Shown piece by piece: positions 6,893 through 47,897 of a stretch of 47,897 bases of DNA (within the stretch, counting starts at the first letter, position 1; each line of letters begins with the position of its first letter). The translations under genes and the position numbers were made by a program. Below the pieces are notes generated by a model, which made no database searches, was not told the origin of the DNA, and worked only from the letters and a program-made list of their open reading frames with translations. Origin of the DNA: Candidatus Bipolaricaulota bacterium (GTDB taxonomy: Bacteria; Bipolaricaulota; Bipolaricaulia; UBA7950; UBA9294); the NCBI GenBank assembly GCA_030611415.1, contig JAUWPW010000006.1:1-47897 (forward strand), given 5' to 3'.

Positions 6893-6921
6893 ATACACAG
6901 TAGAAGAATCCTAGAACAAGA

Positions 6922-28130: not shown

Positions 28131-28231
28131 TTATGTCTATACTCGGAGGGAAGGGAGGTGAAAGTAGTAGTTTCTGGTTTATCAAGTCACTTTGTTTGTG
28201 GTGTTTGCTTAAAGTTCATAAGGAGGTAGCT

Positions 28232-29242: not shown

Positions 29243-29256
29243 ATCCTTCGACCGAT

Positions 29257-29300
29257 GAGTACAGTCTGTTTCCAAGCAGGCTGTACTCTATTCTTCTTAC
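29257..29300 (+). terminator. Intercistronic stem-loop (attenuator or mRNA stabiliser) between binding-protein and permease genes
   Basis: GAGTACAGTCTG-tttccaag-CAGGCTGTACTC (12-bp arms, one G-T wobble) followed by tattcttctt. Confidence 0.65.
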
Positions 29301-29316
29301 GCGGAAGGAGTAAGCG

Positions 29317-30498
29317 TTGAGTAGGAAGGTGTCTTCTTCACATTCGGTTCCCTTTTGGCGCGATGTTCGAGTTCTGCGCGTAATAGGCCAGATTGCATTT
29401 CTTGTGATTATCGCTACCGGAATATGGTGGTTGCTTAATAATCTACGAGTCAACCTTAGGGCATGTGGTTTGAAGATTAGTTTTAGCTTCCTTAGGAATA
29501 CGGCTGGGTTTCCAATTTCGGAGGGCTTACCGTATAGTCCGACTGATGTCAATGGGTACGCGTTCTGGGTTGGTATAGTCAATACAATCCGGATCTCTGT
29601 AATTGGAATCGTGCTTGCAACAATCATCGGAACAGTTATCGGTATCGCCCGTCTTTCAAACAACTGGCTTGTGAAAAAGCTGGCTGGTCTTTACGTAGAG
29701 GTAGTACGTAACATCCCCTTGCTTGTGCAGCTATTCTTCTGGTACTTTGCGGTGATGCTAACTGCACTGCCAATGGTCAAGAATAGCATCAAGCTGCCCG
29801 GGCCCATCTACCTCACCCGTCGGGGGGTGTACCTGCCTTGGGTAGCTCCTACGGGGTCATTTGGCGGGTGGATGTGGTACATCATCATCGGCTTGGTTTT
29901 GGCAATCGCTGTTTACGTATTCCGGCGCGCTTATCTTAGACGCGCCGAACGCCCAGGCTTCCCCCTTATATGGGCAGGATTAGTCCTCATCCTCGTTTTG
30001 GGCGCAGGATGGTTTCTCACCTCAGGCAACCCGTTGGCTCTGACCATTCCCGTCCTGAAGCGCTTCAACTTCGAAGGAGGGCTGTGGTTATCTACGTCAT
30101 TCACCTCACTGTTGGTTGGCCTATCGGTATACACTGGGGCATTCATTGCTGAGATCGTGCGGGCAGGGATTCTCGCGGTAAGCAGAGGACAAACCGAGGC
30201 AGCCAGGGCAGTGGGATTGAAAAAGGCACACGTTCTTCGCTTGGTAGTACTGCCCCAGGCGCTGCGAGTTATCATCCCGCCTTTGGCTAGTCAATATCTC
30301 AACTTGACCAAGAACTCCAGTCTGGCAATCCTCATTGGATATTACGATTTGATGAACGTGGGAACGACCATCTTCAATCAGACCGGTCGCGCCGTCGAGA
30401 TGATCCTGTTGATCATGGCTAGCTACCTGACAATGAGTCTACTGACCAGCCTGTTGATGAACTACTACAATCGCCGTATGAAATTGGTGGAGCGCTGA
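29317..30498 (+). CDS. Amino-acid ABC transporter permease (AapQ/GltJ-like)
   Basis: TTG start with aaggag; VEVVRNIPLLVQLFFWYF, AVGLKKAHVLRLVVLPQALRVIIPPLASQYLNLTKNSSLAILIGYYDL. Confidence 0.92.
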   Translation: MSRKVSSSHSVPFWRDVRVLRVIGQIAFLVIIATGIWWLLNNLRVNLRACGLKISFSFLRNTAGFPISEGLPYSPTDVNGYAFWVGIVNTIRISVIGIVLATIIGTVIGIARLSNNWLVKKLAGLYVEVVRNIPLLVQLFFWYFAVMLTALPMVKNSIKLPGPIYLTRRGVYLPWVAPTGSFGGWMWYIIIGLVLAIAVYVFRRAYLRRAERPGFPLIWAGLVLILVLGAGWFLTSGNPLALTIPVLKRFNFEGGLWLSTSFTSLLVGLSVYTGAFIAEIVRAGILAVSRGQTEAARAVGLKKAHVLRLVVLPQALRVIIPPLASQYLNLTKNSSLAILIGYYDLMNVGTTIFNQTGRAVEMILLIMASYLTMSLLTSLLMNYYNRRMKLVER

Positions 30499-30500
30499 TC

Positions 30501-31712
30501 ATGGACGAGAATCAACTAGCCGGTTACGCTGACAAGAACCAACTCCCACCTCCTAGTGAGAGGATTCCTGCCATACGGTGGCTGAAGCAAAACCTATTCA
30601 GTAGCTGGTTTAATGCGATACTCACTATCGTATCGACGGTGCTCATCATGACGATCGTATTTGGACTCCTTAGGTGGGCCTTGGAAGCACGGTGGGAGGT
30701 TATTCCCGCTAACCTGAAGCTGCTGTTGGTCGGTACCTATCCCGTGGAACACCTGTGGCGTGTCTGGGCAACTGTTTATCTTATCGCTTTCCTGCTGGGG
30801 TTTAGCAGCGGAGCCCATGGTGGCTTGATGCGTCGGGTTTCCACCACGGCTGCTTTGGTATCGGTTGTGTTGGCCGTTCTTCCGTTTCCTTGGGGGACTC
30901 GAGGATGGCTCCTCGGCATTGCCGTCGCTGCTGTCGCTGGTTTTGGCTTGGGGTATCTTGGCAAGGGCATCCGTTGGTGCAAACGCCTGGAAATCGCTTC
31001 CTGGATCTTATCATTCCCCATTAGCCTCATCTTTCTCAATGGGGTGGGGGGAATACTTCCTGTCATTAAGGGAAGAACCATGTGGGGGTTCATGCTCAAC
31101 TTGATCGGTGCAGTGGTGGGGATCGGTCTTTCATTTCCTGTAGGCGTGCTATTAGCCCTCGGACGGCGGAGCAAACTGCCGGCCATTCGGCTAGTGTGTA
31201 CCGCGTACATCGAGATTATCCGCGGTGTGCCGTTGATCAGCCTGCTGTTCATGGCTAGCATTATGCTACAGCTGCTTCTTCCCGCTAGCGTACGACCTGA
31301 CTTGCTCATCCGCGCGATGTTGACGATTACGGCCTTTTCGGCAGCGTATATGGCGGAGAATGTCCGTGGGGGACTACAAGCTATCCCACAGGGACAGTAC
31401 GAAGCGGCCTACGCTGTAGGTCTCAACAGAGCGTTGACAACCATACTGATTATTCTACCACAGGCGTTGCGCATAGTAATTCCAGCGATCGTTGGGCAAT
31501 TCATCGCCCTGTTTATGGACACGACTCTGTTTGGGTTCATAGCGATTCTTGAGCTCTTGAACATCACGCGAAGCATAATGGGTAACCTCGAATGGCGTGG
31601 AACCATATTCGAGCTATACGCATTTATCGGGATTGTGTTTTGGATCTTGTGCTATTCAATGTCCTACGTCAGTCGCAGAATTGAAAAAACACTAGGCGTA
31701 GGAGAACGCTAA
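30501..31712 (+). CDS. Amino-acid ABC transporter permease (AapM/GltK-like)
   Basis: [64 protein letters not shown]. Confidence 0.92.
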
Positions 31713-31725
31713 GAGGAGAGGAGAC

Positions 31726-32478
31726 TTGTCTGTGATAAACAACGAAGGAATTATCATCTACCGCGATGTGCATAAATGGTATGGGGATTTTCATGTGCTT
31801 AGAGGGATTACCTTCACGATGCAGAAAGGCGAGGTAGTGGTGATTTGTGGACCCTCTGGCTCCGGAAAATCCACGTGCATCCGCACGATAAACCGCCTGG
31901 AAGAGCACCAACGGGGACAGATCATCGTGGACGGTATAGAGTTAACAAACGATCTGCGCAACATAGAAGCTATCCGGCGTGAAGTTGGCATAGTCTTCCA
32001 GCAATTCAATCTATTTCCGCACCTTACCGCACTGCAGAATGTCTCTCTTGCGCCTTTTTGGGTGCTGAAGATGAGGAAGAGCAAGGCAGAAGAAGCCGCG
32101 ATGAAGCTCCTTGAGCGTGTCGGCATCCCTGAACAGGCACAGAAATACCCAGCACAGCTTTCCGGTGGCCAGCAACAACGGGTGGCCATCGCACGCGCAT
32201 TGGCGATGAGCCCCAAGATCATGCTCTTTGACGAGCCGACCTCGGCACTGGATCCAGAGATGATCAAAGAGGTGCTCGATGTGATGAAGAACTTGGCGCG
32301 TAGCGGTATGACGATGATTGTGGTCACTCACGAAATGGGCTTTGCGCGCGAAGTGGCAGACCGGATTATCTTCTTCGATTATGGTCAGCTGGTCGAGGAG
32401 AATACTCCCGAGGAATTCTTCCACAACCCGAAGCACGATCGCACGAAGCTCTTCCTATCTCAGATTCTGGAATACTAG
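31726..32478 (+). CDS. Amino-acid ABC transporter ATP-binding protein (AapP/GlnQ-like)
   Basis: [53 protein letters not shown]. Confidence 0.96.
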
Positions 32479-32708
32479 ATGAATGCGGCTTTCCTTATGA
32501 GATACGGAAGACCCAGCCGGTAACAAGCCCTAATAAGGCAATGCATTCTCTTGACAGAGATTCCCTTTTGTGCTATGGATTGAGGAATACTGATTGGCTT
32601 TGCCCACGAGAAAGGAACAGCGTACTATCTGATACCAAACCAGTTTGACGAAATGCAAACAATGGCATCCACATCGATAGAGCAGTTGGCTTGAGAAAGG
32701 AGGTTCAA

Positions 32709-34577
32709 TTGAAAGGTGTTTTTGGTCGGTACGCGGATGTTGATCTAACCAAAGGAATTATTAGAGCTTACGACATTCCTAATGAGTGGCACCGAAAATA
32801 CTTGGGTGGAAGAGGCATTGGGCTTAGGATCCTCCTCGAAGAACTGGAAGGAAAGGAAGATCCCTTAGGGCCCAATAACATCTTGATCTTTGCCACTGGT
32901 CCTTTGCAGGGGACAGGAATTGCGGGAGCAGGTCGACATGCTGTAATCACCAAATCTCCGAAGACCGGGAGCCTGAGTGACAGTTACGCTGGAGGCTTTT
33001 GGGGACATGAGCTTGCCACATCTGGGTACGATGGGATCATCATACGAGGAAAGGCCGCCAAACCTGTATATTTGTCTCTTGCAAATGGTAAGGCAGAGAT
33101 TCATGATGCAAGTTCCCTTTGGGGCCTCCAAACTGGCGAGACAGAAGAAATTCTCAAGAGACAATACGAGGGAGCACGAGTCTCGTCTATCGGGCCTGCA
33201 GGCGAAAACCTTGTTAAGTTCGCGTGCATAATAAATGACATGAGCAGAGCAGCAGGCCGCCCTGGGTTCGGGGCTGTAATGGGAAGCAAGAATCTGAAAG
33301 CAATCGTAGTGAAAGGCGGGCAAGCGAAATCTCTCCATGACACAGAAATGTTGACGGAGATACGCAAGAAAATCGTTCAGCAACTGATGGGAAACCCTGG
33401 AATCCAGGAATTCGGGAAATGGGGATCTTCTGCAGCGGTTATGGGGTTAAACGAAGAAGGGATTCTCCCGACCAAGAATTTTCAAGAGGGCACATTCGAT
33501 GATGCCGAGAAGATCGATGGTGCGGGTTCTCGCTTCAAAGAGATTTTAGTAGGGCGTGACAATTGTACCGGTTGCCCAATTCGCTGCAAGCGCCTTGTCA
33601 AAGGCGAATTCATGGGGAGGGCAATTGAAGAAAAATACGGTGGGCCAGAATACGAGACGCTTGCTGCCCTTGGCTCGAACTGTCTGAATGCTGATGTGTT
33701 ATCTATTAGTCTTGCCAATCAACTTTGCAATCAGTACGGCCTAGACACTATTAGCGCTGGCGTCGCTATCGCTTTTGCTATGGAGGCAAGCGAGAAGGGC
33801 TTGATCAAAGAGAAGGTTCAGTGGGGAGATCCAGAAGCGGTAGTTGAGTTAGTGGAGAAGATTGCCTTCCGAAAAGGAATCGGAGATACCCTGGCAAAGG
33901 GGATTGATAAGGTTGCCGCAGAGATCGGAGCGGACTTCGCGATGCACATTAAGGGGCAGGAGCTGCCCATGCACGATCCACGAGGAAAGAAGGCTCTTGG
34001 CTTGAGTTATGCAACGACTCCGCGTGGTGCCCAGCATATGGAGGCATTACACGACGATGGAGCTGAGGGATTAGGCAAGTATGGAACCCCTGAAATCGGA
34101 GTATACGGTCCTATAGATCGTATGTCATGGGACAAGAAACCACGTTTCTGCAAAATCCATCAAGATCTAGCTTCCTTTGCAAACTCTGTAATCGCATGCA
34201 CTTACGTTGGTTTCGAGGTTGCAATGTGCTCAGGCTATAATCCCTACCCTCATTTCCGTGAAGCTCTCTATGCAGCCACTGGACTGGAAATTGGAGTGCC
34301 AGAGATGCTACTCATCGGTGAGCGAAACTTTAACATGCTCAAATTGGCCGCAGCGCAACAGGGGTATACGCGAAACGATGATGATCTACCAGCACGGCTA
34401 CGCGAGCCCCTCCCTCGGGGTAATAGCGCGCATGAGGGCATTCCAGAGGATGTCCTGCAAGGTGGAATCGACGAATACTACAAGCTTCGAGGATGGGATG
34501 ACTATGGTCCTACAGATGAGAAACTGGCCCAGTTAGACATGCGCAACTTCATTGGGTTCATTGAGCGAGAGGACTAA
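32709..34577 (+). CDS. Aldehyde:ferredoxin oxidoreductase (tungsten AOR family)
   Basis: MKGVFGRYADVDLTKGIIRAYDI, KYLGGRGIGLRILLEEL, RPGFGAVMGSKNLKAIVVKG, CTGCPIRC; TTG at 32709 preceded by aaaggagg. Confidence 0.93.
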   Translation: MKGVFGRYADVDLTKGIIRAYDIPNEWHRKYLGGRGIGLRILLEELEGKEDPLGPNNILIFATGPLQGTGIAGAGRHAVITKSPKTGSLSDSYAGGFWGHELATSGYDGIIIRGKAAKPVYLSLANGKAEIHDASSLWGLQTGETEEILKRQYEGARVSSIGPAGENLVKFACIINDMSRAAGRPGFGAVMGSKNLKAIVVKGGQAKSLHDTEMLTEIRKKIVQQLMGNPGIQEFGKWGSSAAVMGLNEEGILPTKNFQEGTFDDAEKIDGAGSRFKEILVGRDNCTGCPIRCKRLVKGEFMGRAIEEKYGGPEYETLAALGSNCLNADVLSISLANQLCNQYGLDTISAGVAIAFAMEASEKGLIKEKVQWGDPEAVVELVEKIAFRKGIGDTLAKGIDKVAAEIGADFAMHIKGQELPMHDPRGKKALGLSYATTPRGAQHMEALHDDGAEGLGKYGTPEIGVYGPIDRMSWDKKPRFCKIHQDLASFANSVIACTYVGFEVAMCSGYNPYPHFREALYAATGLEIGVPEMLLIGERNFNMLKLAAAQQGYTRNDDDLPARLREPLPRGNSAHEGIPEDVLQGGIDEYYKLRGWDDYGPTDEKLAQLDMRNFIGFIERED

Positions 34578-34892: not shown

Positions 34893-36002
34893 TTATTGGA
34901 CTTTCCCACGGGCTTTGATCTGCCACACGTCCAGTATCTGGCCATCTTGCAGCACGTACATCTCATCGTGGAGGTTTACGGTGGGACAGACGTGATTGGG
35001 AACGATTTCGATCTTGTCTCCGATCTCCACTGTTTGGGCTGAACCATGAGTATCGATGACGCCGTGTTCCTCATTCAACATGACGATCCTCGCCTCTGGA
35101 ATTTCTTTGATGTACCCATATCCGCAATAGTCGAAAGTAAAGCAATTGAAAGCTTCTTCTGGGAACAGAGCCTTACTACCCGCATCAACCACGATGATGC
35201 CAGGACGCGGCATGCTGATCACTGTAGCTAAGACACTCAACGCACATTGGTCCCAGTTCGCCGCACCGAGACACACTTCGATGACATCATTGAACACGTA
35301 GGTTCCAGGGCGCATCTCGGTGATGCCTTCAACACTTGGGATAAAGGGGGCGGACACTGTGGATCCCACGCTAACAACTTTGATGTCGTGACCTGCCTTC
35401 CGCAGGGTCTCTGCATGGGAGACCATCTCCTGTCCAACCTCTAGTGACTTGCACTCAATGCTCGCTCGCGAAGTACCGTGCTCAACGTGGCCTTCGTGCG
35501 TCATAATACCAAGTAGTTTGATATTGTTTAGAGTGGAAATTTGCTTAGCCAATCTAAGTATCTCTCCCTTATCACTTAGACCACATCGATGCACTCCGGT
35601 GTCGATTTCGATCAGAACTTCGAGGTGAACGTTTTTCTGCTGGGCCGCCTCATTCAGCATTTGAGCACCAACATGGCTGTCAACAGCCACAATTAGACGG
35701 ATCTTTTTTGCAAGCGCCGTAAGTCTGTCCAACTTGCGACGGCCGATGACCTGGTTCGCGATAAATATGTCTTTGATCCCCGCTTCAGCCATTATCTCAG
35801 CTTCTCCGAGTTTGGCAACGGTGATCCCGTTCGCCTCGGCTTCAATTTGGAGTTTAGCGATCTCGGGGGTCTTGTGAGTCTTTGCATGTGGGCGAAGATT
35901 CAATCCATTCTTCCTGGCGATCGAAGCCATTGCGCCAATGTTATTCTTCAGCCGCTCCAAATCCATCAGTAAAGCAGGCGTGTCGATGTCATAGTTGGCC
36001 AT
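34893..36002 (-). CDS. D-threonine aldolase / D-serine dehydratase-like (DSD1 family, alanine-racemase fold)
   Basis: DIDTPALLMDLERLKNNI, LRPHAKTHKTPEIA (PLP lysine), EEHGVID, VPNHVCPTVNLHD metal-site region; ATG with gaaggag. Confidence 0.88.
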   Translation of the reverse strand: MANYDIDTPALLMDLERLKNNIGAMASIARKNGLNLRPHAKTHKTPEIAKLQIEAEANGITVAKLGEAEIMAEAGIKDIFIANQVIGRRKLDRLTALAKKIRLIVAVDSHVGAQMLNEAAQQKNVHLEVLIEIDTGVHRCGLSDKGEILRLAKQISTLNNIKLLGIMTHEGHVEHGTSRASIECKSLEVGQEMVSHAETLRKAGHDIKVVSVGSTVSAPFIPSVEGITEMRPGTYVFNDVIEVCLGAANWDQCALSVLATVISMPRPGIIVVDAGSKALFPEEAFNCFTFDYCGYGYIKEIPEARIVMLNEEHGVIDTHGSAQTVEIGDKIEIVPNHVCPTVNLHDEMYVLQDGQILDVWQIKARGKVQ

Positions 36003-36129
36003 AAGTGACGTCTCCTTCATACGCTAGTATCTAGTTCCATGAATCGGCATACCTCTTCTTGAACGGTGTCGCGTAGACAGCCTTCTCTGGGCAATCTCCC
36101 AAGTCATCCTGATCTCAGGTCTGTCGTAC

Positions 36130-36553: not shown

Positions 36554-37240
36554 CTACTTTCGTTCTTCGGTTTCGTTGACTACCGCGACAACTTGATCCT
36601 CCAAGCTACCCGAAGGAACAATCCTTCTATCGAAAACGGCTGTCCCGATCGTGAATGCATAGGCTCCGGCTTTGACTACACGTCTGATCTGATCAAGGCT
36701 ATTCACACTTCCTGCGACGATCACCGGAATCTCCAATGCGTCAATGACGCGTTCCATCAACTCCTCAGGATTCTCCTTATGGCGGTAGGCCAGCAGATCG
36801 ATCCCAGCCACCCCCATCTCCTGTTTCTCCAACGCCTCGGCAACGATCTCATCGATCGAGCCGTGCAGCACGGACGGAATTCCGGAGATATTGCCGACGA
36901 ACGGATAGAATTGGATGCCCGTTCCCTTGATGATCTCCATGACATCTTCCGCGTATTGGCCGTACGATCCGATCAGCCGGTCGACGCCGAGTTCGGCTGC
37001 GATCCGCGCTCCACGAAGGGTCGATTCGCGGTCTTCGCTGACAACCTCGAGATAACTGGTCAATCCGGCATCGTCAATCGCCTTTTTCAGTTCCACAAGT
37101 CGATGCTTGGGGATACCGACGTCTTTGAACCCGATATTCTTCACTCCGAGGTTCTTCACATCATCGAGAACGCGGATCGGCGTCGGGATCGTCCGATCGT
37201 TGTATGTCAGAAAGAAAATGAAATCAGTCATTTGTTGCAT
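36554..37240 (-). CDS. Phosphate-binding TIM-barrel protein (HisA/NanE/KGPDC-like), unknown substrate
   Basis: Predicted beta-alpha repeat with IPVIVAGSVNSLDQIRRVVKAGAYAFTIGTAVFDRR phosphate-binding motif. Confidence 0.6.
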   Translation of the reverse strand: MQQMTDFIFFLTYNDRTIPTPIRVLDDVKNLGVKNIGFKDVGIPKHRLVELKKAIDDAGLTSYLEVVSEDRESTLRGARIAAELGVDRLIGSYGQYAEDVMEIIKGTGIQFYPFVGNISGIPSVLHGSIDEIVAEALEKQEMGVAGIDLLAYRHKENPEELMERVIDALEIPVIVAGSVNSLDQIRRVVKAGAYAFTIGTAVFDRRIVPSGSLEDQVVAVVNETEERK

Positions 37241-37251
37241 CTCCTGTAGTT

Positions 37252-38784
37252 CTAGAAACTTTTACTCGCGGTAAACATTCCGCATAGGTCTTCGTAGAGT
37301 TTTGTGTACGCGGCGTACATCCTGGAATACTTCCCGGCAAGCTCATCGCGTGGCTCGGTGCTCGCCGGCGCAAGTCTCACCGTCTTGTCGACGGCCTCGT
37401 CGACGGTCTGCCACACACCGGTCGCTACACCGGCCAAGATAGCCGCGCCAAGGCATGCGGCATCCTGAGGATCCTGGGACACGATGACGGGGCGTTCCGT
37501 GACATCGGCTTTCATCTGCAGCCACAGTTTGCTCTTCGCACCGCCGCCAAGAGACCGGATCTCTTCGACCTTTATTCCTAATCCCTCAAACGCGTCGATC
37601 AATCTTCGGATCGCAAAGCACAGTGATTCCATAATCGCTCGAATCATGTGAGCCTTCGTGTGCCGCATCGTGAGCCCGAAGAACACGCCCTTGGCATCGG
37701 TATTCGATTCAGGCGGTCCTGCCCCCTGTAGATGCGGCAGAACGACGAGCCCTTCCGAACCAGGCGGAACGTTCGCCGCTTCACCCGTCATCAGATCGTA
37801 CGCGTCGACTCTGGTCCGTTCGGCGACCGACAATTCTTCCTGGCAGAACTTGTCCCTGAACCAGCGGAAGACCATCCCGCCAGTCGTAAAGGAATGCGCC
37901 ATGTACATGTCCGGCAGAGCGAAGTAGAAGCAGGGAATTTTCCCCTCCGGATCTTCGAACGGTTTATCGACAAGAGCACACATGGCGAGTGCGGCTCCGA
38001 TGTTCTCCGTCACCACGCCAGGACGGATGCAGCCGACGCCGATCGCGCCGCAAGCTTGATCAAGCCCTCCTGTGACAACGACGGTATCGGGAGAAAGGCC
38101 CAACTCGCGCGCGATCTCCTCTCGAATCGACCCGATGGCTTCGCCCGGCTCCCGGATCTCCGGAAGCTGAGAGGCGGAGATTCCGAGATACGCAAGCATC
38201 TCGTTCCACCACTGTTTCGTGTGGATGTCCCAGTACGTGGTTGAACAAAGGAGCGATCCTTCGGATACGTACTCCCCGGTCAGCCGATGGATCAACCAAT
38301 CCTCGATAAGCAGGAACTTGTCCACCTGCTCGAACAACTCCGGCTCGTTCCGCTTCATCCACAGGATCTTGGCAGCGGGCCATGTCGCACACATCGAGAC
38401 CTGTCCCGTCTTTCGCACAAGTTCGCTCTGCGGGAACACTTCGGCGAGGATCTCCGCCTCCTCGTGCGCACGGCTGTCCATCCAGACAATCGCCGGGCGA
38501 ACCGAGATACCATCCTTGTCCACCGGTATCAGCGTTTCCCCCTGTGCTGAAATCCCGATGCAGCGGATGTCCTCCGGAGCGACTGAACCGTTGCCCAAAA
38601 CTGCTTGAACCCCGCGCTTAACGGCGTTCCAATAGACCTCGACATTCTGTTCGACGACAAGCACCGATGGAACGATCAATTCGTACTCCTGGGTGGATTT
38701 CGCCACCAGGCGTCCGTCATCGGTGAACAGGGCCGTCTTGATCGCCGTCGTCCCGAGATCGAAGCTCAGTATGTATTCGGTCAT
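37252..38784 (-). CDS. FGGY-family carbohydrate kinase (xylulokinase-like)
   Basis: MTEYILSFDLGTTAIKTALFTDDG, AIVWMDSRAHEEAE, VVTGGLDQACGAIGVG, IRSLGGGAKSKLWLQMKADV; the ORF track over-extends the N-terminus. Confidence 0.93.
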   Translation of the reverse strand: MTEYILSFDLGTTAIKTALFTDDGRLVAKSTQEYELIVPSVLVVEQNVEVYWNAVKRGVQAVLGNGSVAPEDIRCIGISAQGETLIPVDKDGISVRPAIVWMDSRAHEEAEILAEVFPQSELVRKTGQVSMCATWPAAKILWMKRNEPELFEQVDKFLLIEDWLIHRLTGEYVSEGSLLCSTTYWDIHTKQWWNEMLAYLGISASQLPEIREPGEAIGSIREEIARELGLSPDTVVVTGGLDQACGAIGVGCIRPGVVTENIGAALAMCALVDKPFEDPEGKIPCFYFALPDMYMAHSFTTGGMVFRWFRDKFCQEELSVAERTRVDAYDLMTGEAANVPPGSEGLVVLPHLQGAGPPESNTDAKGVFFGLTMRHTKAHMIRAIMESLCFAIRRLIDAFEGLGIKVEEIRSLGGGAKSKLWLQMKADVTERPVIVSQDPQDAACLGAAILAGVATGVWQTVDEAVDKTVRLAPASTEPRDELAGKYSRMYAAYTKLYEDLCGMFTASKSF

Positions 38785-38818
38785 AGTAGTCCTTGTTGTT
38801 TCTCCGTAGATCCCCCGT

Positions 38819-40156
38819 TCATAAGTTCGTAACGAAAATGCCGAGGAATTCGGCCAGATCGCAGAGATCCTCTCGAAGATCGCCCTCGGCCAAAACGAAG
38901 TGGTGTTCCATTCCGGCGTTCGCCAGGAGAGACAGAAGATCCTCGCCTGCCCAGGTGGCTTCCAGCTTGGCCAGTGAAACGCCGCCCATCCGGTGCCATT
39001 CCTCAAGCGACATTCCCTTGCATTCAACCTGCCCAGCGAACAACCGGTATGAATCCGAATCGTCCCAGACATTGACAAGGGTCGCCTTGTCCATTTTCCG
39101 AATTGGGAACTGCACGAAGCAGCCCGTCTCTCCTTCTCCAGCGATTGTCACTTCGTCGAGGCTCGCTGCGAGCGACAGCGCACAGCTGCCGGCGTGCCCG
39201 AGATATAAGGTCCCGTTCTCCGGACCGATATAGGCCAGCTCCCCGAGCATCGACGGCGCGGATGAAAGATCTCCGAGGAGGTTCATGACGGTCGTCCGCG
39301 CAAGGTCGCCCTCCGTCTCGAGGACGAATCCGTCATCTCCAAGCCACGATGCAGCGAGATTCGCCGCCCCCCACGCGTACGGATAGGTCTGAATCGTCGC
39401 GGCATCGAGCTGGTATCGGCCTTGGAGCTCCTCGATTGCCAGCGTCTCCGCCGCCGCTACGAGCAGGCGATTCTCTTCCCCCGGTTCGACCGCCGGCAGC
39501 TGTCCTTGGCTCGCCTTTGCCTGAACCAGTTCCTTTCGACGATCCAGCGAAACCCGCTCGACAGTCTCCAGAAATTCGGTCATCTCGATATGAATCACCG
39601 ATGCTCCGAAAAGCTCTCCGAGATCCCATTCCCCCGAAGTCATGTCCTGCGGTCCGAACGCCCGCCACGTCGACCGGGGGCCAATCAGACCGATGTGACG
39701 AGGCTCGTCCCGATGCGCGACCTTCGCTACAAGGGCGTATCGGTCGACCGCATCGCAGATTCGATCTTCGCTCGGCGTCCCGTACGCGAGTTTGAAGCCA
39801 ATTCCCCGATTGCGCAGGATTCCCGCGAAATGCTGGACCGCGGCGACCGAATACGTTTCCGGATACGGCAATCCCCACAGGAAGAGCGGAGCTCCGCTGC
39901 ACCGCGAGATCAAGTATGGAATCGAATCTCTGGCCCACGTTGCGTGGATCAGGACAGCCAAATCGACGTTCTCACTACGGAATCGGGTGCCCGCTTCAAC
40001 GGCGCCCGCATCGGTAAGAACGGTCTCCTCGTGTTTGATGATGACTACACCTCTGCGTTCCAGTTGATCGCCAGCTTCGGCCAACAGCGAACCCGCTCGT
40101 TCAAGCCCGGATTCTGCTTCGTTGCCAACAACTGCTAGACCTACTCTGGGGTTCAT
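38819..40156 (-). CDS. L-fucose/L-arabinose isomerase-like protein
   Basis: LAVLIHATWARDSIPYLISRCSGAPLFLWGLPYPE, GRYQLDAATIQTYPYAWG, GHAGSCALSLA; SD aaggagg. Confidence 0.75.
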   Translation of the reverse strand: MNPRVGLAVVGNEAESGLERAGSLLAEAGDQLERRGVVIIKHEETVLTDAGAVEAGTRFRSENVDLAVLIHATWARDSIPYLISRCSGAPLFLWGLPYPETYSVAAVQHFAGILRNRGIGFKLAYGTPSEDRICDAVDRYALVAKVAHRDEPRHIGLIGPRSTWRAFGPQDMTSGEWDLGELFGASVIHIEMTEFLETVERVSLDRRKELVQAKASQGQLPAVEPGEENRLLVAAAETLAIEELQGRYQLDAATIQTYPYAWGAANLAASWLGDDGFVLETEGDLARTTVMNLLGDLSSAPSMLGELAYIGPENGTLYLGHAGSCALSLAASLDEVTIAGEGETGCFVQFPIRKMDKATLVNVWDDSDSYRLFAGQVECKGMSLEEWHRMGGVSLAKLEATWAGEDLLSLLANAGMEHHFVLAEGDLREDLCDLAEFLGIFVTNL

Positions 40157-40193
40157 GAATAGATACCTCCTTGTACTAATAGTTGGTTGCGTT

Positions 40194-40237
40194 CTGTCTT
40201 GCAGGAACCTCGTCTCAATTGGGTTCTTGCAAGACAG
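40194..40237. terminator. Long stem-loop separating the class-V aminotransferase gene from the sugar cassette
   Basis: CTGTCTTGCAGGAACC-tcgtctcaattg-GGTTCTTGCAAGACAG, 16-bp arms with one wobble. Confidence 0.65.
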
Positions 40238-40262
40238 GTCCTCGCTTCACCGCTGATCTTGG

Positions 40263-41549
40263 CTAGCGCTTCGTGCTCACAAACGTTTTCAGCGCAGCCG
40301 TATCATTCAAGGAATCAATCAACCGTGTCAGCTCTTCTCTTGTATTGTAAGGAGCGATCCCGACTCTTATCAGGCCTCCTTGATCCCGCAGCCCAAGGCG
40401 TTCAACCAATCTGGCAGCAAAGAAATCACCATGCCACACAGACAGGCCTCTTTCACCAAGGTAGTCAGCAACTTCATAGGGGGTAAAACCATCATAGGTA
40501 AAGGAAACTGTAGATGTTCGCGGATGTCCTGTCGGAGGGCCATAAATCTTGATCTTATTAATTTTCTCTAGTCCTTTGATGAGATACTGTGTCAATTCCG
40601 CTTCGTACTCATCAAACACAATGAGTCCGGCAACAATCCGATTCCGTCGAGTGTCACCCCTGCTTTCCGGTGTCTTGTTGAGCTGTTTTCCAAATTTGGC
40701 TCCCATATCAGCAACAAAACCCACCGCCGCTGCCGCACCAGCAATTCCTTCGTGATGAAGCGTACCGGTCTCGAACATGTCTGGCGGATAGCTCTTTTGC
40801 GGTCGTACACGCATCGGCCTGAGTTTACTCAGTACCTCTTTCTTGGCATACATAACACCAATGTGGGGACCGAAGAACTTGTAGGCCGAGCAAAAGAGGA
40901 AGTCTGTCCCGATCTCCCGCACGTCGATCGATCGGTGAGCCGCATAATGAACAGCATCAACAATAGTAAAAGCGCCTACAGAATGGGCCATTTTGACGAC
41001 CTTCTTAACATCCGTAATCGTACCAACAGCGTTTGATGCGTAGTTTACTGCGACTACTCTCGTGCCTGCGGAAAGTTTCCTCTCAAGATCAGCCATGCTG
41101 AGCGTACAGGTTTCTGTGTCAACAACAGCTTCTTCAACTATGACCCCGCGCTCTCGAAGCTGCTCCCACGGCCCTCGGTTTCCTTCATGATCGATCTCTG
41201 TTATGATGACTTTGTCGCCCACCGTCATCTCCCTCATCAACGCCTGAGCAAGAGAGAAATTTAAGGTAGTCATGTTGGCACCGAAGATGACTTCATCTGA
41301 TGAGCAATTGAAGAAATCAGCAAACGCACAACGAGCTTCTTTCAACATCTGATCGGTCTTCCTGCTGGTCTCAAACATACCCTCGACATTCGCATTACTG
41401 TTGATCAGATAGTCGTCCACGGCCTGAATAACGGTCTGTGGGACCTGATACCCTCCTGGCCCGTCCAAAAAAGCCACTGGATAACCGTTTACTGTATTTG
41501 CAAGCGAAGGAAACTCCTTCCTTATGTGAGTGCTCAGTGTCTCCGTCAA
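40263..41549 (-). CDS. Cysteine desulfurase-like class V aminotransferase
   Basis: AFLDGPGGYQVPQTVIQAVDDYL, FGANMTTLNFSLAQAL, DFLFCSAYKFFGPHIGVMYAKKE (PLP lysine); TTG at 41549 with aaggaga. Confidence 0.88.
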   Translation of the reverse strand: MTETLSTHIRKEFPSLANTVNGYPVAFLDGPGGYQVPQTVIQAVDDYLINSNANVEGMFETSRKTDQMLKEARCAFADFFNCSSDEVIFGANMTTLNFSLAQALMREMTVGDKVIITEIDHEGNRGPWEQLRERGVIVEEAVVDTETCTLSMADLERKLSAGTRVVAVNYASNAVGTITDVKKVVKMAHSVGAFTIVDAVHYAAHRSIDVREIGTDFLFCSAYKFFGPHIGVMYAKKEVLSKLRPMRVRPQKSYPPDMFETGTLHHEGIAGAAAAVGFVADMGAKFGKQLNKTPESRGDTRRNRIVAGLIVFDEYEAELTQYLIKGLEKINKIKIYGPPTGHPRTSTVSFTYDGFTPYEVADYLGERGLSVWHGDFFAARLVERLGLRDQGGLIRVGIAPYNTREELTRLIDSLNDTAALKTFVSTKR

Positions 41550-41635
41550 TATACATCTCCTTTCCAAAGTTATGAATGGATGCCGAAAAAAATACGGCGT
41601 CTTCTTTCCCCGTCCGTGATGATATTAGCTCATAT

Positions 41636-42568
41636 TTAGATCCATAGCTTCCCTGTTGCCACGATCTCAACGAGACTGTGACTGATGTACGCCTGTGTCA
41701 CCTTTCTGTCTTGAACAACGAGGCGCAACTCCATAGTGTCGGGTCCGCCCAGGCTGAATATATCGCCCCCCGTTTCAAAAAGCAGGGAGATATCCCCATT
41801 TTCGTCGATCTCTCCGTTCTCCACCATGGCGATGCCAACAGCTACGGTCCCTGTCCCACATGATGGCTCGTAGTACCTCTGGTCAAGACCATGAGGGAAG
41901 ACGAGACGTCCAGAGTGGCTCTTGGAGTACAAATCATACAGTGAGAAACATGAGGTCTCCCGTCCAATATATCTATGGAATTCATGTTGCGCTTCCTGGA
42001 ATATGCGAAACTCTTTCTCGTCCATTTGCTCAAACCTCATGTCGGGATAGACCTGCTTCGCAGCATCACCATTCATGACGAGGAACGTGCCAACTTTCAG
42101 TGCATCTATACCGGCAACTTTGAGGCGCTCAATACCCAAGGCATAACACGCTTCCACAAAAGCTGTCATATCAGTAAATACTCGCTCAACTTTCCCGTCC
42201 TGATGAAGGATTCTTAACCGAACGGGCCCTACGCCAGTTTCCAGAACCACATTCGTCTCCGGTTCCTCAATTGTCAGCCCAACGTGAGACGCTAGATCGG
42301 TTTCAACAATCGCTTTACCCAAGACTTGAGTTAATCCACCACACATACCGAGGAGCTCATATGAAGTGGCGTCGAGTATCTCCAACTTGATGTCAGCTAT
42401 TTCAGACTGATACACAAGCCCTGAGTTATGTCCTCCGATACTGGGCTTGGCAAGCACAGATGCTGCAACCGGAATCCCCTGTCCTTCTGGCATCTGGTCT
42501 GCGTAAAGCAGGACAATCTCATTTCCTCCCATGTGCCCTTTGATGAAATCAACTCTCTTCTTCTCCAT
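41636..42568 (-). CDS. Diaminopimelate-epimerase/proline-racemase-fold protein, substrate unknown
   Basis: Two candidate catalytic cysteines: LLGMCGGLTQVLGKA and YEPSCGTGTVAVG; SD ggggagga before ATG. Confidence 0.7.
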   Translation of the reverse strand: MEKKRVDFIKGHMGGNEIVLLYADQMPEGQGIPVAASVLAKPSIGGHNSGLVYQSEIADIKLEILDATSYELLGMCGGLTQVLGKAIVETDLASHVGLTIEEPETNVVLETGVGPVRLRILHQDGKVERVFTDMTAFVEACYALGIERLKVAGIDALKVGTFLVMNGDAAKQVYPDMRFEQMDEKEFRIFQEAQHEFHRYIGRETSCFSLYDLYSKSHSGRLVFPHGLDQRYYEPSCGTGTVAVGIAMVENGEIDENGDISLLFETGGDIFSLGGPDTMELRLVVQDRKVTQAYISHSLVEIVATGKLWI

Positions 42569-42689
42569 TCTCAATCCTCCCCATTCCGCATGCCCTAGTC
42601 TATCTCTTCTTCCTGTAAATAGACATCCAGTCTACTTTCCGCATACAAGGATCAGCTTCACTTTACCCATTACATCAGCGGCGCTATCA

Positions 42690-43538
42690 TCATTTCGTGA
42701 GTTTCTTCGTATGTGGATCTATCAGGTCGCGGAGACCATCCCCCAAGAGGTTGAATCCCAGGACCGTGATTAGGATAGCTATACCGGGCAGGACGCTAAG
42801 CCAAGGGGCATTGTAGAAATAATTACGCCCCGCGTTCAACATAGTGCCCCACTCCGGCAGCGGAGGCTGTGCTCCAAGCCCAAGAAATCCCAGGGATGCA
42901 GCAATGAGAATCGCATCACCAATTCCGAGGGTTCCTATGACCAGTATAGGTGCAATGGCATTAGGCAATATATGCTTAGACAGTATTCTGAAACGGGAGC
43001 AGCCTATTGTTTTTGCTGCCTCTACATAGTTTTCCTCTTTGATTGATAACGTTTTGGATCGTGCCAAACGACACGTGCCGCACCAGTTCGTTATCCCCAG
43101 CGCGATAAACAGGTTATGTAATCCCGGCCCCAATAAGGCCATGAGGGCCAGTGCGAAGATCAATACCGGTATTGATAGAGTCGCGTTTGTCAGGAACATG
43201 ATGACATCATCCCAAACGCGCCCGTAGAAACCAGCAACAATCCCCAACACACCACCGATAACTGTGTTCGCAAGCTGAGCGATTAGTCCCACTAGGAGAG
43301 AGATTCGTGCACCGAAAAGAAGTCGGCTCAACATATCTCGCCCGCAATGGTCGGTTCCTAACAGGTAACGGCTATCTTCCCCGATTCCCAGGAGCGCATC
43401 GTTCAGATTGCCATGTGCGTAGTGGTACGGAGAAAGCAGGGGCGCAAACACCGCGATGAAGCAGACCAGTATCACAAGAGTTGCGCCTATGACCGCGTTC
43501 TTCTTCCGCCAGAAACGCTTCAAGCTTTTGTGGCTCAA
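42690..43538 (-). CDS. Peptide ABC transporter permease (DppC-like)
   Basis: LLGTDHCGRDMLSRLLFGARISL, NYVEAAKTIGCSRFRILSKHILPNAIAPILV; TTG start preceded by gaggagg, assigned from that SD. Confidence 0.9.
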   Translation of the reverse strand: MSHKSLKRFWRKKNAVIGATLVILVCFIAVFAPLLSPYHYAHGNLNDALLGIGEDSRYLLGTDHCGRDMLSRLLFGARISLLVGLIAQLANTVIGGVLGIVAGFYGRVWDDVIMFLTNATLSIPVLIFALALMALLGPGLHNLFIALGITNWCGTCRLARSKTLSIKEENYVEAAKTIGCSRFRILSKHILPNAIAPILVIGTLGIGDAILIAASLGFLGLGAQPPLPEWGTMLNAGRNYFYNAPWLSVLPGIAILITVLGFNLLGDGLRDLIDPHTKKLTK

Positions 43539-43570
43539 CTCAACATCCTCCTCGATCGATACAATGTCAA

Positions 43571-44506
43571 TTAATACCGGATCCGTGGATCCAAGAAGCC
43601 ATACCCCACATCGATAGCGAGGTTCAAGATAAGAAAAGCCAATACCATAACTAGGATCGCTGCTTGCATAGCCGGAATGTCGCGTCCCAAGATCGAGACC
43701 ACCAACAGACGGCCGATTCCAGGCAAGCCGAATACCTCCTCGATAACCACCGTGTTTGCAAATAGCCAACCGCTCTCTAGTCCAACGATGGTTAGGATCG
43801 GGACCAGCGCATTACGAAATATGTGCTTTCCCCTTACGCGAAAGAGTGAAAGGCCTTTAGATTTGGCCGTCCTTACATAGTCCTGACTAGCTACATCAAG
43901 CATACTTGATCGCGTTACTCTTGCGATGAGACCAATGTATCTGAACCCCAAGGCAAGAGATGGAAGAATCAGGAAGAGTATGTTACCCGCGCTGTATCCA
44001 CTTGTAGGCAAGAGGCCCCATTTGACAGCCACGACCAGCATCAGCATCAACCCCACCCAGAACTCAGGCACCGACACTCCGACAATCGCTGTGACCATGC
44101 AGACGAGATCGATGATTGTACCTCTGTGAATGGCAGCCAAGAAGCCGAGCGTTAAGCCGCCCACAACCGCCAGGAGTATCGAGATTCCGGCCAATTTCAA
44201 GGTGACCGGCAGGCGCTGCTTTATGACATCGCTTAACACTTGATCCGTGCGATAGGAGGTTCCCAAGTTTCCTGTAAGCAATCCGCCGACGAATCTAAAA
44301 TACCGCACATAGGCCGGATCATTTAAGCCCCATTCCTCGCGTAGTTGCTCGATCCCCTCTGTGTTTGCAACCCCTCGCTTGAAACCGGCTGCGCGAACAA
44401 ACGCGGCGTCCCCAGGAAGAAGGCTTAGGACAACAAATATTATGAGGGTGACTGCAATAATCGTGGGTATAAAAGCAAGAAGACGCCTTATAATAAATGC
44501 CAACAT
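43571..44506 (-). CDS. Peptide ABC transporter permease (DppB-like)
   Basis: MLAFIIRRLLAFIPTIIAVTLIIFVVLSLLPGD, QDYVRTAKSKGLSLFRVRGKHIFRNALVPILT. Confidence 0.93.
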   Translation of the reverse strand: MLAFIIRRLLAFIPTIIAVTLIIFVVLSLLPGDAAFVRAAGFKRGVANTEGIEQLREEWGLNDPAYVRYFRFVGGLLTGNLGTSYRTDQVLSDVIKQRLPVTLKLAGISILLAVVGGLTLGFLAAIHRGTIIDLVCMVTAIVGVSVPEFWVGLMLMLVVAVKWGLLPTSGYSAGNILFLILPSLALGFRYIGLIARVTRSSMLDVASQDYVRTAKSKGLSLFRVRGKHIFRNALVPILTIVGLESGWLFANTVVIEEVFGLPGIGRLLVVSILGRDIPAMQAAILVMVLAFLILNLAIDVGYGFLDPRIRY

Positions 44507-44527
44507 GTTATCTACAATCCCTTAGAT

Positions 44528-44575
44528 GAGCGAGGGAGTAGCTGCGAACTTTCACTTCGAGGCACTCCCTCGCTC
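44528..44575. terminator. Intercistronic stem-loop between dppA-like and dppB-like genes
   Basis: GAGCGAGGGAGT...ACTCCCTCGCTC, perfect 12-bp arms, no T-tract. Confidence 0.6.
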
Positions 44576-44589
44576 CACTCTACCGAGAC

Positions 44590-46200
44590 TTACGCTCTTG
44601 GTGAACGCTCATCCACCCAAACCTTCTCGTATTGTTGGTACTTGAGGTCGATTGGCATCTGCTGCATGCCATGGACCCAAACCTGTGTCCCAAAGACCAC
44701 TGTGCTAAAATTAATCGCAATCCAGGGAGCATCATCGGTTACGATTCTCTCGATTTCTCTAAGCAATTCGGTCCGCTCGACGTCATCGACTGTCAGGACA
44801 GCTTCGTCGATCAGAGCATCAACTACAGGATTCGAGTATCGAAGCCAGTTGGTGGCACCAAAGTTCTTTGAATGGAACCGTTGAACAAACTGCAAGGCAA
44901 TAGGCTCACCGCCGTGTGAATCCACATAGGACTCGTAGTTGCCCGTCAAAGCGTCCATCTCAACGGTTCCATACTCCGTTGGAACAAGCTTGCAGTGGAC
45001 ACCGATTGCTTCAAAATACGGCAGAAGTGGTTCGATTGCCGGAATTCCCCAAGTGGCGGCAGTTGGGTCACCAACTACTGAGAATGTAAACCCATCTGGA
45101 TAGCCCGCTTCAGCCAGCAACTCCTTCGCTTTTTCGGGACTGTAGTAATACCCAGATACGTCTTTCAGTGGGATGTTAAAACCTGGAGGGAAGATTCCGG
45201 CCCCTGTTGCGGAGATGGGGACGTTGTTAAGATAGACTCTAACGTATGCATCACGGTCAATTGCATAATTGAGCGCCTGGCGCACACGTTTGTCCTGGAA
45301 CGGCCCCCATTCATTGTTAAACCCAAGATGACGGGTCCACAGTTCCGCGACCTTAAGCTCCTGGAAGTTGGGGTCGTTCTGCCAACGCGGGTAATTGGTG
45401 GGGCTGCTCAAAAAAGCATCAATCTCCCGGGCTTGGAAGGCGGCTCCTGCTGCCGGGTAGTCTGACAACCGCCTGAAAACAAGTGTGTCCAGATAAGGCC
45501 GTCCGCCGTAGTACTCCTCAAAGGCTTTGAGCGTGATCGTGTCACCTCTCCAGCTCTCGAGCATGAACGGACCAGCGCCAACCGGATTCCTTCCAAATTG
45601 GCCGTCACCTACTGCCTCAACTGCTTCAGAAGGTACAACTCCAGCACCTGGCTCGCCCAGTGTTGTGATAAAAGTTAAATCCATGCTCTTGAGAGTGATG
45701 CGAAGAGTGTAGTTGTCCACTACCTCGATCCCTGTAATGCTTTCTGCCTCACCGTTTCGAAACTCGTCTGCTCCAACAACATTGTCAAAGATGTAGACGC
45801 TGATTCCGCCACGGTTGGGATCCATGAGTCGCTCAAAAGAGTATTTGCAATCCTGCGCGATCACTTCCCGACCATTTTGGAAGCTTGCGCCATGACGAAG
45901 GTGGAATGTGTAAACAGTACCATCCTCGCTGATTTCCCAGGACTCAGCAAGGGCGGGCTCTACGGAGAGCTCTGGAGTCCACCTGACTAGGCCCCGGTGA
46001 ACCTGCATGATGACGCTCCCTGTTTCAGCGTCGGTGATTGAAGAGCGCAGCGGATCCAGTGTGATCACTTCACTCGGGTTAAGCATATTGACGAAGGTCC
46101 CGCCATACATCGGTTGATCTTGCCCTACACAGACGGCAAGAGAAGCCATCATCATCAACGGTACCAAAATCCCTACTAAACAAAAGCACCTTATTCGCAT
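44590..46200 (-). CDS. Peptide ABC transporter substrate-binding protein (DppA/OppA-like)
   Basis: Signal peptide; GGTFVNMLNPSEVITLDPLRSSITDAETGSVIMQVHRGLVRW, WEISEDGTVYTFHLRHGASFQNGREV. Confidence 0.94.
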   Translation of the reverse strand: MRIRCFCLVGILVPLMMMASLAVCVGQDQPMYGGTFVNMLNPSEVITLDPLRSSITDAETGSVIMQVHRGLVRWTPELSVEPALAESWEISEDGTVYTFHLRHGASFQNGREVIAQDCKYSFERLMDPNRGGISVYIFDNVVGADEFRNGEAESITGIEVVDNYTLRITLKSMDLTFITTLGEPGAGVVPSEAVEAVGDGQFGRNPVGAGPFMLESWRGDTITLKAFEEYYGGRPYLDTLVFRRLSDYPAAGAAFQAREIDAFLSSPTNYPRWQNDPNFQELKVAELWTRHLGFNNEWGPFQDKRVRQALNYAIDRDAYVRVYLNNVPISATGAGIFPPGFNIPLKDVSGYYYSPEKAKELLAEAGYPDGFTFSVVGDPTAATWGIPAIEPLLPYFEAIGVHCKLVPTEYGTVEMDALTGNYESYVDSHGGEPIALQFVQRFHSKNFGATNWLRYSNPVVDALIDEAVLTVDDVERTELLREIERIVTDDAPWIAINFSTVVFGTQVWVHGMQQMPIDLKYQQYEKVWVDERSPRA

Positions 46201-46675: not shown

Positions 46676-46942
46676 TCAATGGGTGCGTCGCGTGGATTCC
46701 TCATACACGTTTCTTCGATGGCTGATGCTGAGGATATAGAGAACTCTGTTTTCTATGATGTAGACGATACGGTAATTTCCTGCGCGATGGGAGCGCATTC
46801 CTTCCAGCTTTCCTCGTAACCGTTTCCCTTTCTCTGGTTCTTTAGCGAGCTCGTCGATCACACGCTCAATCCGACGACGCCACGAAACTGGGATCCGTTT
46901 GACCTCCTTCTTCACTTGAGGATGGTAACGCACCTCAAGCAT
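46676..46942 (-). CDS. RelE/ParE-superfamily toxin
   Basis: LEVRYHPQVKKEVKRIPVSWRRRIERVIDELAKEPEKGKRLRGKLEGMRSHRAGNYRIVYIIENRVLYILSISHRRNVYE. Confidence 0.88.
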   Translation of the reverse strand: MLEVRYHPQVKKEVKRIPVSWRRRIERVIDELAKEPEKGKRLRGKLEGMRSHRAGNYRIVYIIENRVLYILSISHRRNVYEESTRRTH

Positions 46943-47201
46943 CTGCGAAGACGTCTTGTCCAGAGGTGGAACGCCCTTCTTTGACCTCTTTTCGGCGTTG
47001 TTCAAGCGTTTCCACTAGCCCCGGTGTTTCGTAGATTTCGAGTGTCTCTAGAAGATCCTCGTAGTCTTCGAAGTTCAGCAGGATCACCTCTGGCTTCCCG
47101 TTGCGCGTGAACACAAAACGATCGAGGTTCTCGCGTGCTTCTTTCGCGAGGCGCAAGAGGTCCTTCCGTCCGTCTGTAATAGGGATGATCTTTGTCGCCA
47201 T
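46935..47201 (-). CDS. Phd/YefM-type antitoxin
   Basis: MATKIIPITDGRKDLLRLAKEARENLDRFVFTRNGKPEVILLNFEDYEDLLETLEI; overlaps the toxin start. Confidence 0.85.
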   Translation of the reverse strand: MATKIIPITDGRKDLLRLAKEARENLDRFVFTRNGKPEVILLNFEDYEDLLETLEIYETPGLVETLEQRRKEVKEGRSTSGQDVFADA

Positions 47202-47521
47202 CGTTTCTCCTCCTTGTTTAGATGAGCAGAATAACGATCATTAGCATATACGGAGGGTGCCTCTTTGTCAAGGGATATCTCATGCAAGATGAACAGGATC
47301 GAGATCGGCATGGCTCTCTTGAGCGCCCGAGTCGAGTCCGAGTGGACAGGATCCGCCAATTACTGAGCGAACTCGTGGTGAAAAAGCCATAACGAGGCAA
47401 CCCACCGCTATCACCTTAACCGGCTGGTCGTAGCCGGCGAAGAAGCGGTACATGCAGTCCTAGCTGCTCTGCGGGAAGGCCTCCGCGCCATCCAGTGATA
47501 CAAAATAGAGGAGTCTCTGCG

Positions 47522-47897
47522 ATGGAACAAGAGCGTAAATTGGTGACCTTTGGTGAAACGATGATCCGGCTTTCGCCTCCCGGTCATCAACGACTGGAAC
47601 AAGCCGAACAGCTCGATGTCTATGTTGGTGGCTCGGAGTTAAACGTGGCCGTCACTGCACAACGGCTGTGGTCACAGGAGAGAGCGCGAGAGGTAATGAC
47701 GGAGCTGATGAACTACACGGACATCCTCATAACCACCGAGGAGGACACAGAGCGGGAGACCCCGTCGGTCTGGCGAAACACGTGGACGGGGATTGCCTAT
47801 GCCAATGGTCAGATCTACCGCGGTCCGAAGTTCGATATCGAGGTCGTCGATCGAGTCGGTGCGGGGGATTCCTTCGCTGGTGGGTTTCTGTTCGGTT
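47522..47897 (+). pseudogene. kdgK: 2-keto-3-deoxygluconate kinase (PfkB family) apparently carrying two in-frame internal deletions; runs off the window
   Basis: Translation [125 protein letters not shown]; absent from the ORF track because the frame is open at the edge. Confidence 0.75.

Follow-up and report, generated by a model that had tools for sequence, protein, structure and literature searches.

A rare phosphate-binding barrel next to an FGGY kinase and a fucose-isomerase-like gene in Bipolaricaulota: a putative sugar catabolic cassette

The 47,897-nucleotide stretch of DNA analysed here as a whole (hereafter the window; contig JAUWPW010000006.1 of a Candidatus Bipolaricaulota bacterium, from an assembly of 1.33 Mb and 93% completeness) carries on its minus strand three co-directional genes. 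These encode a divergent member of the L-fucose/L-arabinose isomerase superfamily (38819..40156, 445 aa, called by profile match), an FGGY carbohydrate kinase (37252..38784, 510 aa, with both Pfam domains) and an orphan phosphate-binding (beta/alpha)8 barrel (36554..37231 or 37240, 225 or 228 aa). We estimate at about one in two the probability that the three genes form a catabolic cassette in which isomerase and kinase are followed by the barrel acting on the sugar phosphate. The isomerase-like protein would convert an aldose or an aldehyde-type sugar acid to a ketose, the FGGY kinase would phosphorylate that ketose, and the barrel, through its strand 7/8 motif, would hold the phosphate group of the resulting sugar phosphate and convert this compound into one usable by central metabolism. 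The direction of these steps and the place of the barrel after the kinase are probably correct, and it is from the gene content that we read a degradation of sugar. The isomerase-then-kinase logic is that of fucose-, arabinose- and tagatose-type operons and is ordinary in the same bacterial family, where a sister operon (locus L184) encodes an isomerase, an alcohol dehydrogenase, an FGGY kinase and a DeoC-like aldolase. In contrast to such operons, the third enzyme of the window is no known aldolase or epimerase, and the barrel is the only unusual element of the trio.

The three genes are real at the place where the first-pass annotation had put them, and the proposed succession of isomerase, kinase and phosphate barrel is supported. 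The arrangement exceeds what chance would give, the order being kept in a second genus and the kinase being the sole FGGY kinase found in the assembly. Fold, families, gene order, conservation and the barrel-kinase link are shown in this study. The gaps measure 34 bp (isomerase/kinase) and 20 bp (kinase/barrel), and a Shine-Dalgarno-like sequence lies ahead of all three starts (AAGGAGG, AAGGA and AGGAG). The AGGAG of the barrel suits its second ATG, which gives 225 aa, the same length as in the homologue of the second genus (genome G031, locus L015), and the barrel start is probably at 37231. Note that a longer mechanical open reading frame of the kinase, up to 39078, overlaps the isomerase, and that scans for promoters and terminators gave counts not above those of shuffled sequence. 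In another genome of the same genus the whole region is syntenic, whereas the second genus retains from it only the unit aminotransferase-isomerase-kinase-barrel, in the same order.

The first-pass annotation had described the last protein as a TIM barrel, and structure prediction gave a confident and clean (beta/alpha)8 fold (AlphaFold2 (AF2) model, pLDDT 94.9, pTM 0.91). With glycine-rich motifs at strands 7 and 8, this predicted TIM fold places the protein in the phosphate-binding (beta/alpha)8 superfamily. The invariant residues comprise T12, D15, K39, E65, S68 and R153 together with the glycine motifs of both strands, in which A176-G177 and T197/G199 are invariant, and S178 almost so, in 35 barrel relatives. 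The only match above a cut-off was PF00977 (HisA/HisF; 25.7 bits, cut-off 23.6), limited to 59 residues (147-205), and the protein falls far under the cut-offs of the HisA/HisF equivalog models. It also remained under those for NanE (PF04131, 20 versus 27 bits; a second model, 23.5 versus 189 bits), did not match PF00596 and scored 16.4 against 23.8 bits with PF01791. By any curated model it is not a class II aldolase or a FucA/AraD enzyme, as had been claimed, and neither is it a ribulose-phosphate epimerase (RPE) or a KGPDC. The claimed phosphate motif is real, and it is nearer to NanE, HisF and HisA than to KGPDC: in hhalign comparisons with twelve E. coli barrels, NanE (69%), HisF (63%) and HisA (57%) came out on top, while KGPDC stood among the last with less than 1%. 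In addition, the DxKxxD motif of the KGPDC/OMPDC suprafamily was not found in the barrel, whose strand 3 reads E65-V66-V67-S68-x-D70, with V67 invariant in the 35 members and hence no lysine there. Scanning of these relatives gave many weak matches to models of the HisA, NMO, NanE, TrpA and PcrB types, which in the window barrel are confined to the C-terminal phosphate region, and the best fold matches in the PDB were PcrB, BexX, GGGPS and TrpA, with TM-scores of 0.6-0.7. The barrel family has no assignment in Pfam or NCBIfam and is a separate, uncharacterised subfamily of phosphate-binding barrels. Two specific roles were rejected: a replacement of a missing RPE, as the genome already has RPE and transketolase, and a thiosugar synthase fed by a cysteine desulfurase (with BexX as second fold match), as the neighbouring aminotransferase-fold protein has no cysteine in its catalytic region and the barrel relatives have no partner of the cysteine desulfurase type.

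A scan of 84,980 species genomes yielded 374 relatives, and the barrel is rare, occurring in 4 of 60 relatives of the window genome, in 9 of 228 Asgard genomes and in 4 of 301 from the Anaerolineae phylum. It is not a housekeeping enzyme, a possibility raised by the first-pass annotation: few relatives of the window genome have it, and that genome encodes a separate RPE, a class II aldolase and a transketolase. Partner profiles covered 90 loci, namely 80 taken from the scan, another 9 retrieved individually and the window itself, with a few genomes or loci represented more than once. In 71 of them a kinase-type partner stands no farther than 5 kb from the barrel: an FGGY kinase lies within this distance in 25, PdxA in 46 (33 with DUF1537, 13 with PdxA alone) and neither in 19, and FGGY never occurs there with PdxA or DUF1537. 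A quickly built, long-branched tree of 88 barrels requires only 3 changes of the partner label compared to 19.3 with shuffled labels; the shuffles do not correct for near-copies. One barrel is thus recurrently linked to two unrelated kinase systems and would therefore act on a phosphorylated intermediate. More speculatively, the family may catalyse a reaction absent from enzyme lists and form the core of a module in Asgard archaea and several bacterial phyla, fed by either FGGY or DUF1537/PdxA.

The partners vary with the lineage. The typical proteobacterial operon comprises a LysR gene next to DUF1537, PdxA and the barrel, in which a cupin is often fused to the barrel; a C-terminal cupin domain was found in one such barrel (L007 8989-10044) and in about 40 other loci. 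A separate cupin of ~110-140 aa stands beside FGGY and barrel in Asgard, Bathyarchaeota and Anaerolineae loci, and in the window genome the search for a cupin returned only a weak generic match (E 0.002). Where present, the cupin may act as an anomerase or ring-opening helper by analogy with suggestions made for NanQ and for the cupin-like DUF4867 family, which co-occurs with fucose-isomerase and FGGY genes (PMC11968277). In the Asgard loci, further genes encode short-chain dehydrogenase/reductase (SDR) enzymes and a PF04199 hydrolase, and in some of them also a GPH symporter; FGGY is accompanied by a D-2-hydroxyacid dehydrogenase at the barrel in three other Asgard genomes and one Pelagibacter, and by a HAD phosphatase in loci of actinobacterial type. 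As side observations, some barrel-cupin fusions (many from Bosea) have no kinase or PdxA nearby, and a 35% identical relative lies between two IS257 copies, beside PutP, on a plasmid of the skin staphylococcus Staphylococcus warneri (L152 6995-7657). Relatives on Rhizobium, Roseateles and Gluconobacter plasmids (L006 8995-9723, L008 and L009) are annotated '4-hydroxythreonine-4-phosphate dehydrogenase', a name apparently copied from the adjacent PdxA gene. One Rhizobium record hinted at a threitol link, since genes for DhaKL and D-threitol dehydrogenase lie in the vicinity of a barrel relative, but this relative is frameshifted and on the other strand, and the link was not used.

The kinase supports the same association from the other side. 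It contains PF00370 (219.1 bits) and PF02782 (119 bits), its nearest model is XylB (TIGR01312; 369.8 bits, under the equivalog cut-off of 380.25), and it is the sole FGGY kinase found in the window assembly. Its counterpart in G031 is 71% identical. The window kinase is 51-57% identical to the barrel-adjacent kinases of Asgard, Bathyarchaeota, Thermoplasmatota and Anaerolineae, a subfamily recognizable by the motifs SAQGET, W[ML]D[NS]RA and G[AG]LDQ[AV]CG (in the window, SAQGET, WMDSRA and GLDQACG), and the Asp of GLDQACG is conserved in every barrel-linked kinase aligned. E. coli LyxK, 26% identical to the window kinase, lacks the full set of motifs. Kinase and barrel occur together in 6 of the 228 Asgard genomes, against totals of 7 for the kinase and 9 for the barrel (hypergeometric p = 3e-9, relatedness not corrected for), the seventh kinase being on a 9.5 kb contig alongside a cupin, an SDR enzyme and a sugar ABC transporter; the subfamily occurs in 3 of 100 Bipolaricaulota genomes, and all three have the barrel. 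Some cassettes of this subfamily include a GPH-family sugar symporter, SBP1-type sugar ABC transporters or LivJ/LivH-type transporters.

The isomerase matched no Pfam model, and the sole curated model that it matched, over nearly its full length (residues 44-441), was NF048012 (sulfoquinovose isomerase SftI), at 65.6 bits versus a cut-off of 700. While the single sequence found no solved member, a profile built with eight relatives reached L-arabinose isomerase structures (7cwv, E 6e-12) and FucI (E 2e-4). The putative metal ligands are E282, E306, H321 and H419, of which E282, H321 and H419 are invariant among the relatives and E306 aligns with Asp in most; their spacing of 24/15/98 resembles that of AraA (27/17/100). 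Judged from profile and ligands, the protein is a divergent L-fucose/L-arabinose isomerase superfamily member; the AF2 model, built from three sequences, was unusable (pLDDT 49). Sulfoglycolysis was rejected, given the weak SftI match and the kinase in place of a transaldolase; indeed, the SftI pathway uses a transaldolase and has no kinase step on the sugar, unlike the window. Most other barrel genomes tested have no isomerase homologue, and an isomerase as entry step is proposed for the window only. Its place is taken in archaeal loci by dehydrogenases, which would be consistent with a ketose as the shared intermediate.

The products of FGGY kinases are ketose phosphates. PdxA enzymes also lead to ketose phosphates, by oxidising sugar-acid phosphates to 3-keto acid phosphates that then lose CO2. 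Our tentative preference is a barrel acting as ketose-phosphate isomerase or epimerase with Lys39 and Glu65 as acid-base pair, since this chemistry suits the products of both FGGY and PdxA without further assumptions and since the nearest profile relatives include isomerases and epimerases. The substrate might be, as a guess, a four- or five-carbon sugar; a sugar acid is possible because elsewhere the barrel family works with the acid-sugar kinase DUF1537 and with PdxA, as is a sugar from an amino-acid-linked compound. Several points weigh against this scheme. The barrel shares only the C-terminal phosphate motif with HisA and NanE while its catalytic half matches nothing, and the closest solved folds include enzymes with other chemistries (PcrB, BexX and TrpA). 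If PdxA yields dihydroxyacetone phosphate (DHAP), which is its product in D-threonate degradation, a barrel with isomerase activity would only duplicate triosephosphate isomerase. In addition, the aminotransferase-fold gene upstream and a peptide-type transporter misfit a simple sugar pathway, the recent history of the barrel gene differs from that of its neighbours (see below), and activity data were not found for any member of the barrel family.

Comparison with known systems shows partial likenesses. In E. coli, nanK-nanE-nanQ and lyxK-sgbH-yiaL are two operons in which a kinase, a phosphate-binding barrel and a small protein of the sugar-anomer/DUF386 type are encoded together. The 3-keto-L-gulonate pathway (yiaKLMNO-lyxK-sgbHUE/ula), whose yia operon includes the small DUF386 protein YiaL, resembles the window by an FGGY kinase beside a phosphate-binding barrel of ~220 aa; however, LyxK is a distant kinase, the SgbH/UlaD barrels are not detectably close and no fucose-family isomerase occurs there. 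The nanA-T-E-K-Q operon likewise combines kinase, barrel and sugar anomerase, and its NanE (N-acetylmannosamine-6-phosphate 2-epimerase) had the best hhalign score, but the similarity is limited to the C-terminal motif and stays below the NanE cut-offs. NanK is not known to be an FGGY kinase. D-threonate/erythronate degradation is related through the proteobacterial barrels lying directly behind DUF1537 and PdxA (33 loci) or PdxA alone (13 loci), in place of which the window has FGGY and the isomerase; the C4-acid pathways as described (PMC12540250, PMC10971088) contain no such barrel step. We found no characterised pathway uniting the three families in the open-access literature searched, and no paper there on the barrel or the trio; most subscription papers lay outside this search, and a published assignment could have been missed.

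Among other chemistries, a decarboxylase is unlikely. A PdxA enzyme or a dehydrogenase would then produce a 3-keto acid, the kinase would phosphorylate it and the barrel would remove CO2, for which lyxK-sgbH, an FGGY kinase adjoining such a barrel, is a direct precedent. The PdxA partners do make 3-keto acids, C4 sugar acids are substrates of DUF1537 kinases (PMC10971088; pathway in PMC12540250), a D-2-hydroxyacid dehydrogenase accompanies some cassettes (L146-L148, L083), and others have an SDR enzyme and a possible lactonase, the PF04199 hydrolase. Nevertheless, of all E. coli barrels compared, only UlaE gave a weaker profile match than UlaD and SgbH, and strand 3 shows E65-x-V67-S68-x-D70 where the KGPDC/OMPDC family has DxKxxD; PdxA enzymes usually decarboxylate on their own, and an aldose-ketose isomerase is no obvious source of a 3-keto acid.

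It is similarly doubtful that Lys39 forms a Schiff base and that the barrel, as a class I aldolase replacing FucA/RhaD/DeoC-like aldolases, cleaves a ketose phosphate to DHAP and an aldehyde. Lys39, which ends strand 2 on its C-terminal side, and Glu65 at strand 3 are both invariant, a DeoC/LacD-type aldolase holds this position in the related isomerase-FGGY operon of the same bacterial family, and the phosphoglycolate-type HAD phosphatase of the actinobacterial cassettes could act on a cleavage product. However, most known class I aldolases carry their lysine on strand 4 or 6, a weak DeoC/LacD match occurs in only 3 of the 35 members, and a retro-aldol reaction is ill-suited to PdxA products such as DHAP or tetrulose phosphate.

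A larger amino-acid or sugar-amino-acid route, which would include the peptide-type transporter and the proline-racemase-like, aminotransferase-fold and BhcC-like proteins, also appears improbable. These genes are co-directional, with mostly small gaps and an order kept in the second genome of the genus; in rhizobia, the genes on either side of barrel, DUF1537 and PdxA encode BhcC-like and threonine synthase-like proteins, threonine aldolase, a class III aminotransferase and a peptide ABC transporter. The presence of peptide-type importers and beta-hydroxy amino acid genes in the rhizobial clusters suggests that the natural substrate could be a conjugate. Against such a route, the other genus retains aminotransferase, isomerase, kinase and barrel alone, and in those archaeal and Anaerolineae loci that were read, the barrel has none of the amino-acid genes in its vicinity.

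The cassette itself has a mosaic history. Comparison of the window with G031 gives a DNA identity of 50-75% over most of the unit, but two tracts are mostly 85-100% identical, namely ~300 bp at the aminotransferase/isomerase junction (about 40090-40350; L015 about 6900-7130), including a 107-bp intergenic stretch, and ~520 bp of the barrel gene (about 36690-37200; L015 10001-10675). Isomerase and kinase (37252-40156) have 58-60% G+C within a window of 50%, compared to 50-51% in the G031 orthologues. The simplest reading is allele replacement by recombination within the cassette; a less likely alternative is an artefact of binning or assembly in G031, which has 8% contamination. The identity at fourfold sites, 75% for the barrel versus about 30% for isomerase and kinase, indicates a separate recent history and might make the barrel an unrelated or decaying neighbour without a pathway role, but this is very improbable for a gene whose reading frame is intact, whose product shows 90% protein identity and retains every residue found invariant in the 35 relatives, and whose linkage to kinases recurs in many phyla.

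If the catabolic cassette is as proposed, the barrel would mark a degradation step not yet named by biochemistry, in a family that accompanies kinases of sugars or sugar acids across many unrelated bacteria and archaea. With 374 species-level relatives, two mutually exclusive partners and frequent cupin fusion, this orphan family has a sharp, testable context. Its assignment would give a name to a pathway step still missing for Asgard archaea and uncultured Bipolaricaulota, and would also put right the rhizobial '4-hydroxythreonine-4-phosphate dehydrogenase' annotations.

Concerning the neighbouring genes, a class V aminotransferase-fold protein of the TIGR01976/VC1184 family (40263..41567, minus strand; 420.5 versus a cut-off of 352.35) lies directly upstream of the isomerase in two genera and has, as read from the sequence, no cysteine at the cysteine desulfurase active-site position. 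It is preceded by a co-directional gene for a short proline-racemase-family protein (41636..42574, minus strand; PF05544, 31.7 bits), found in the same order in the second genome of the genus and not in the other genus, whose membership of the unit is uncertain. The first-pass annotation had stated that no transporter is attached, which is doubtful: two ABC permeases (42690-43769 and 43571-44506, by sequence reading) and an SBP_bac_5 (SBP5) solute-binding protein (44590-46200), all on the minus strand, are co-directional with the unit and 2.5-6 kb upstream, and may form an importer in one operon with it. No ATPase gene was found in this cluster (42690..46200), and the transporter is not retained with the unit in G031. 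Downstream, 534 bp from the barrel, a D-serine dehydratase/BhcC-like pyridoxal phosphate protein (34893..36020, minus strand; PF01168 and PF14031) has counterparts close to the barrel in several rhizobia; whether it belongs to the unit is uncertain. Between these two genes, the sister genome shows by eye a truncated ornithine cyclodeaminase-like frame (L011 10829-11320), and the matching stretch of the window has no such frame. Farther off, an aldehyde:ferredoxin oxidoreductase (32691-34577, plus strand) adjoins a polar amino acid ABC transporter (28133-32478, plus strand). Upstream of the operon, reading by eye suggests a likely RelE-type toxin with a Phd/YefM-type antitoxin (46676-47201) and, at the window end (47495-47896), a PfkB/KDG-kinase-like frame in which an N-terminal part is joined to a C-terminal part, the middle being seemingly deleted.

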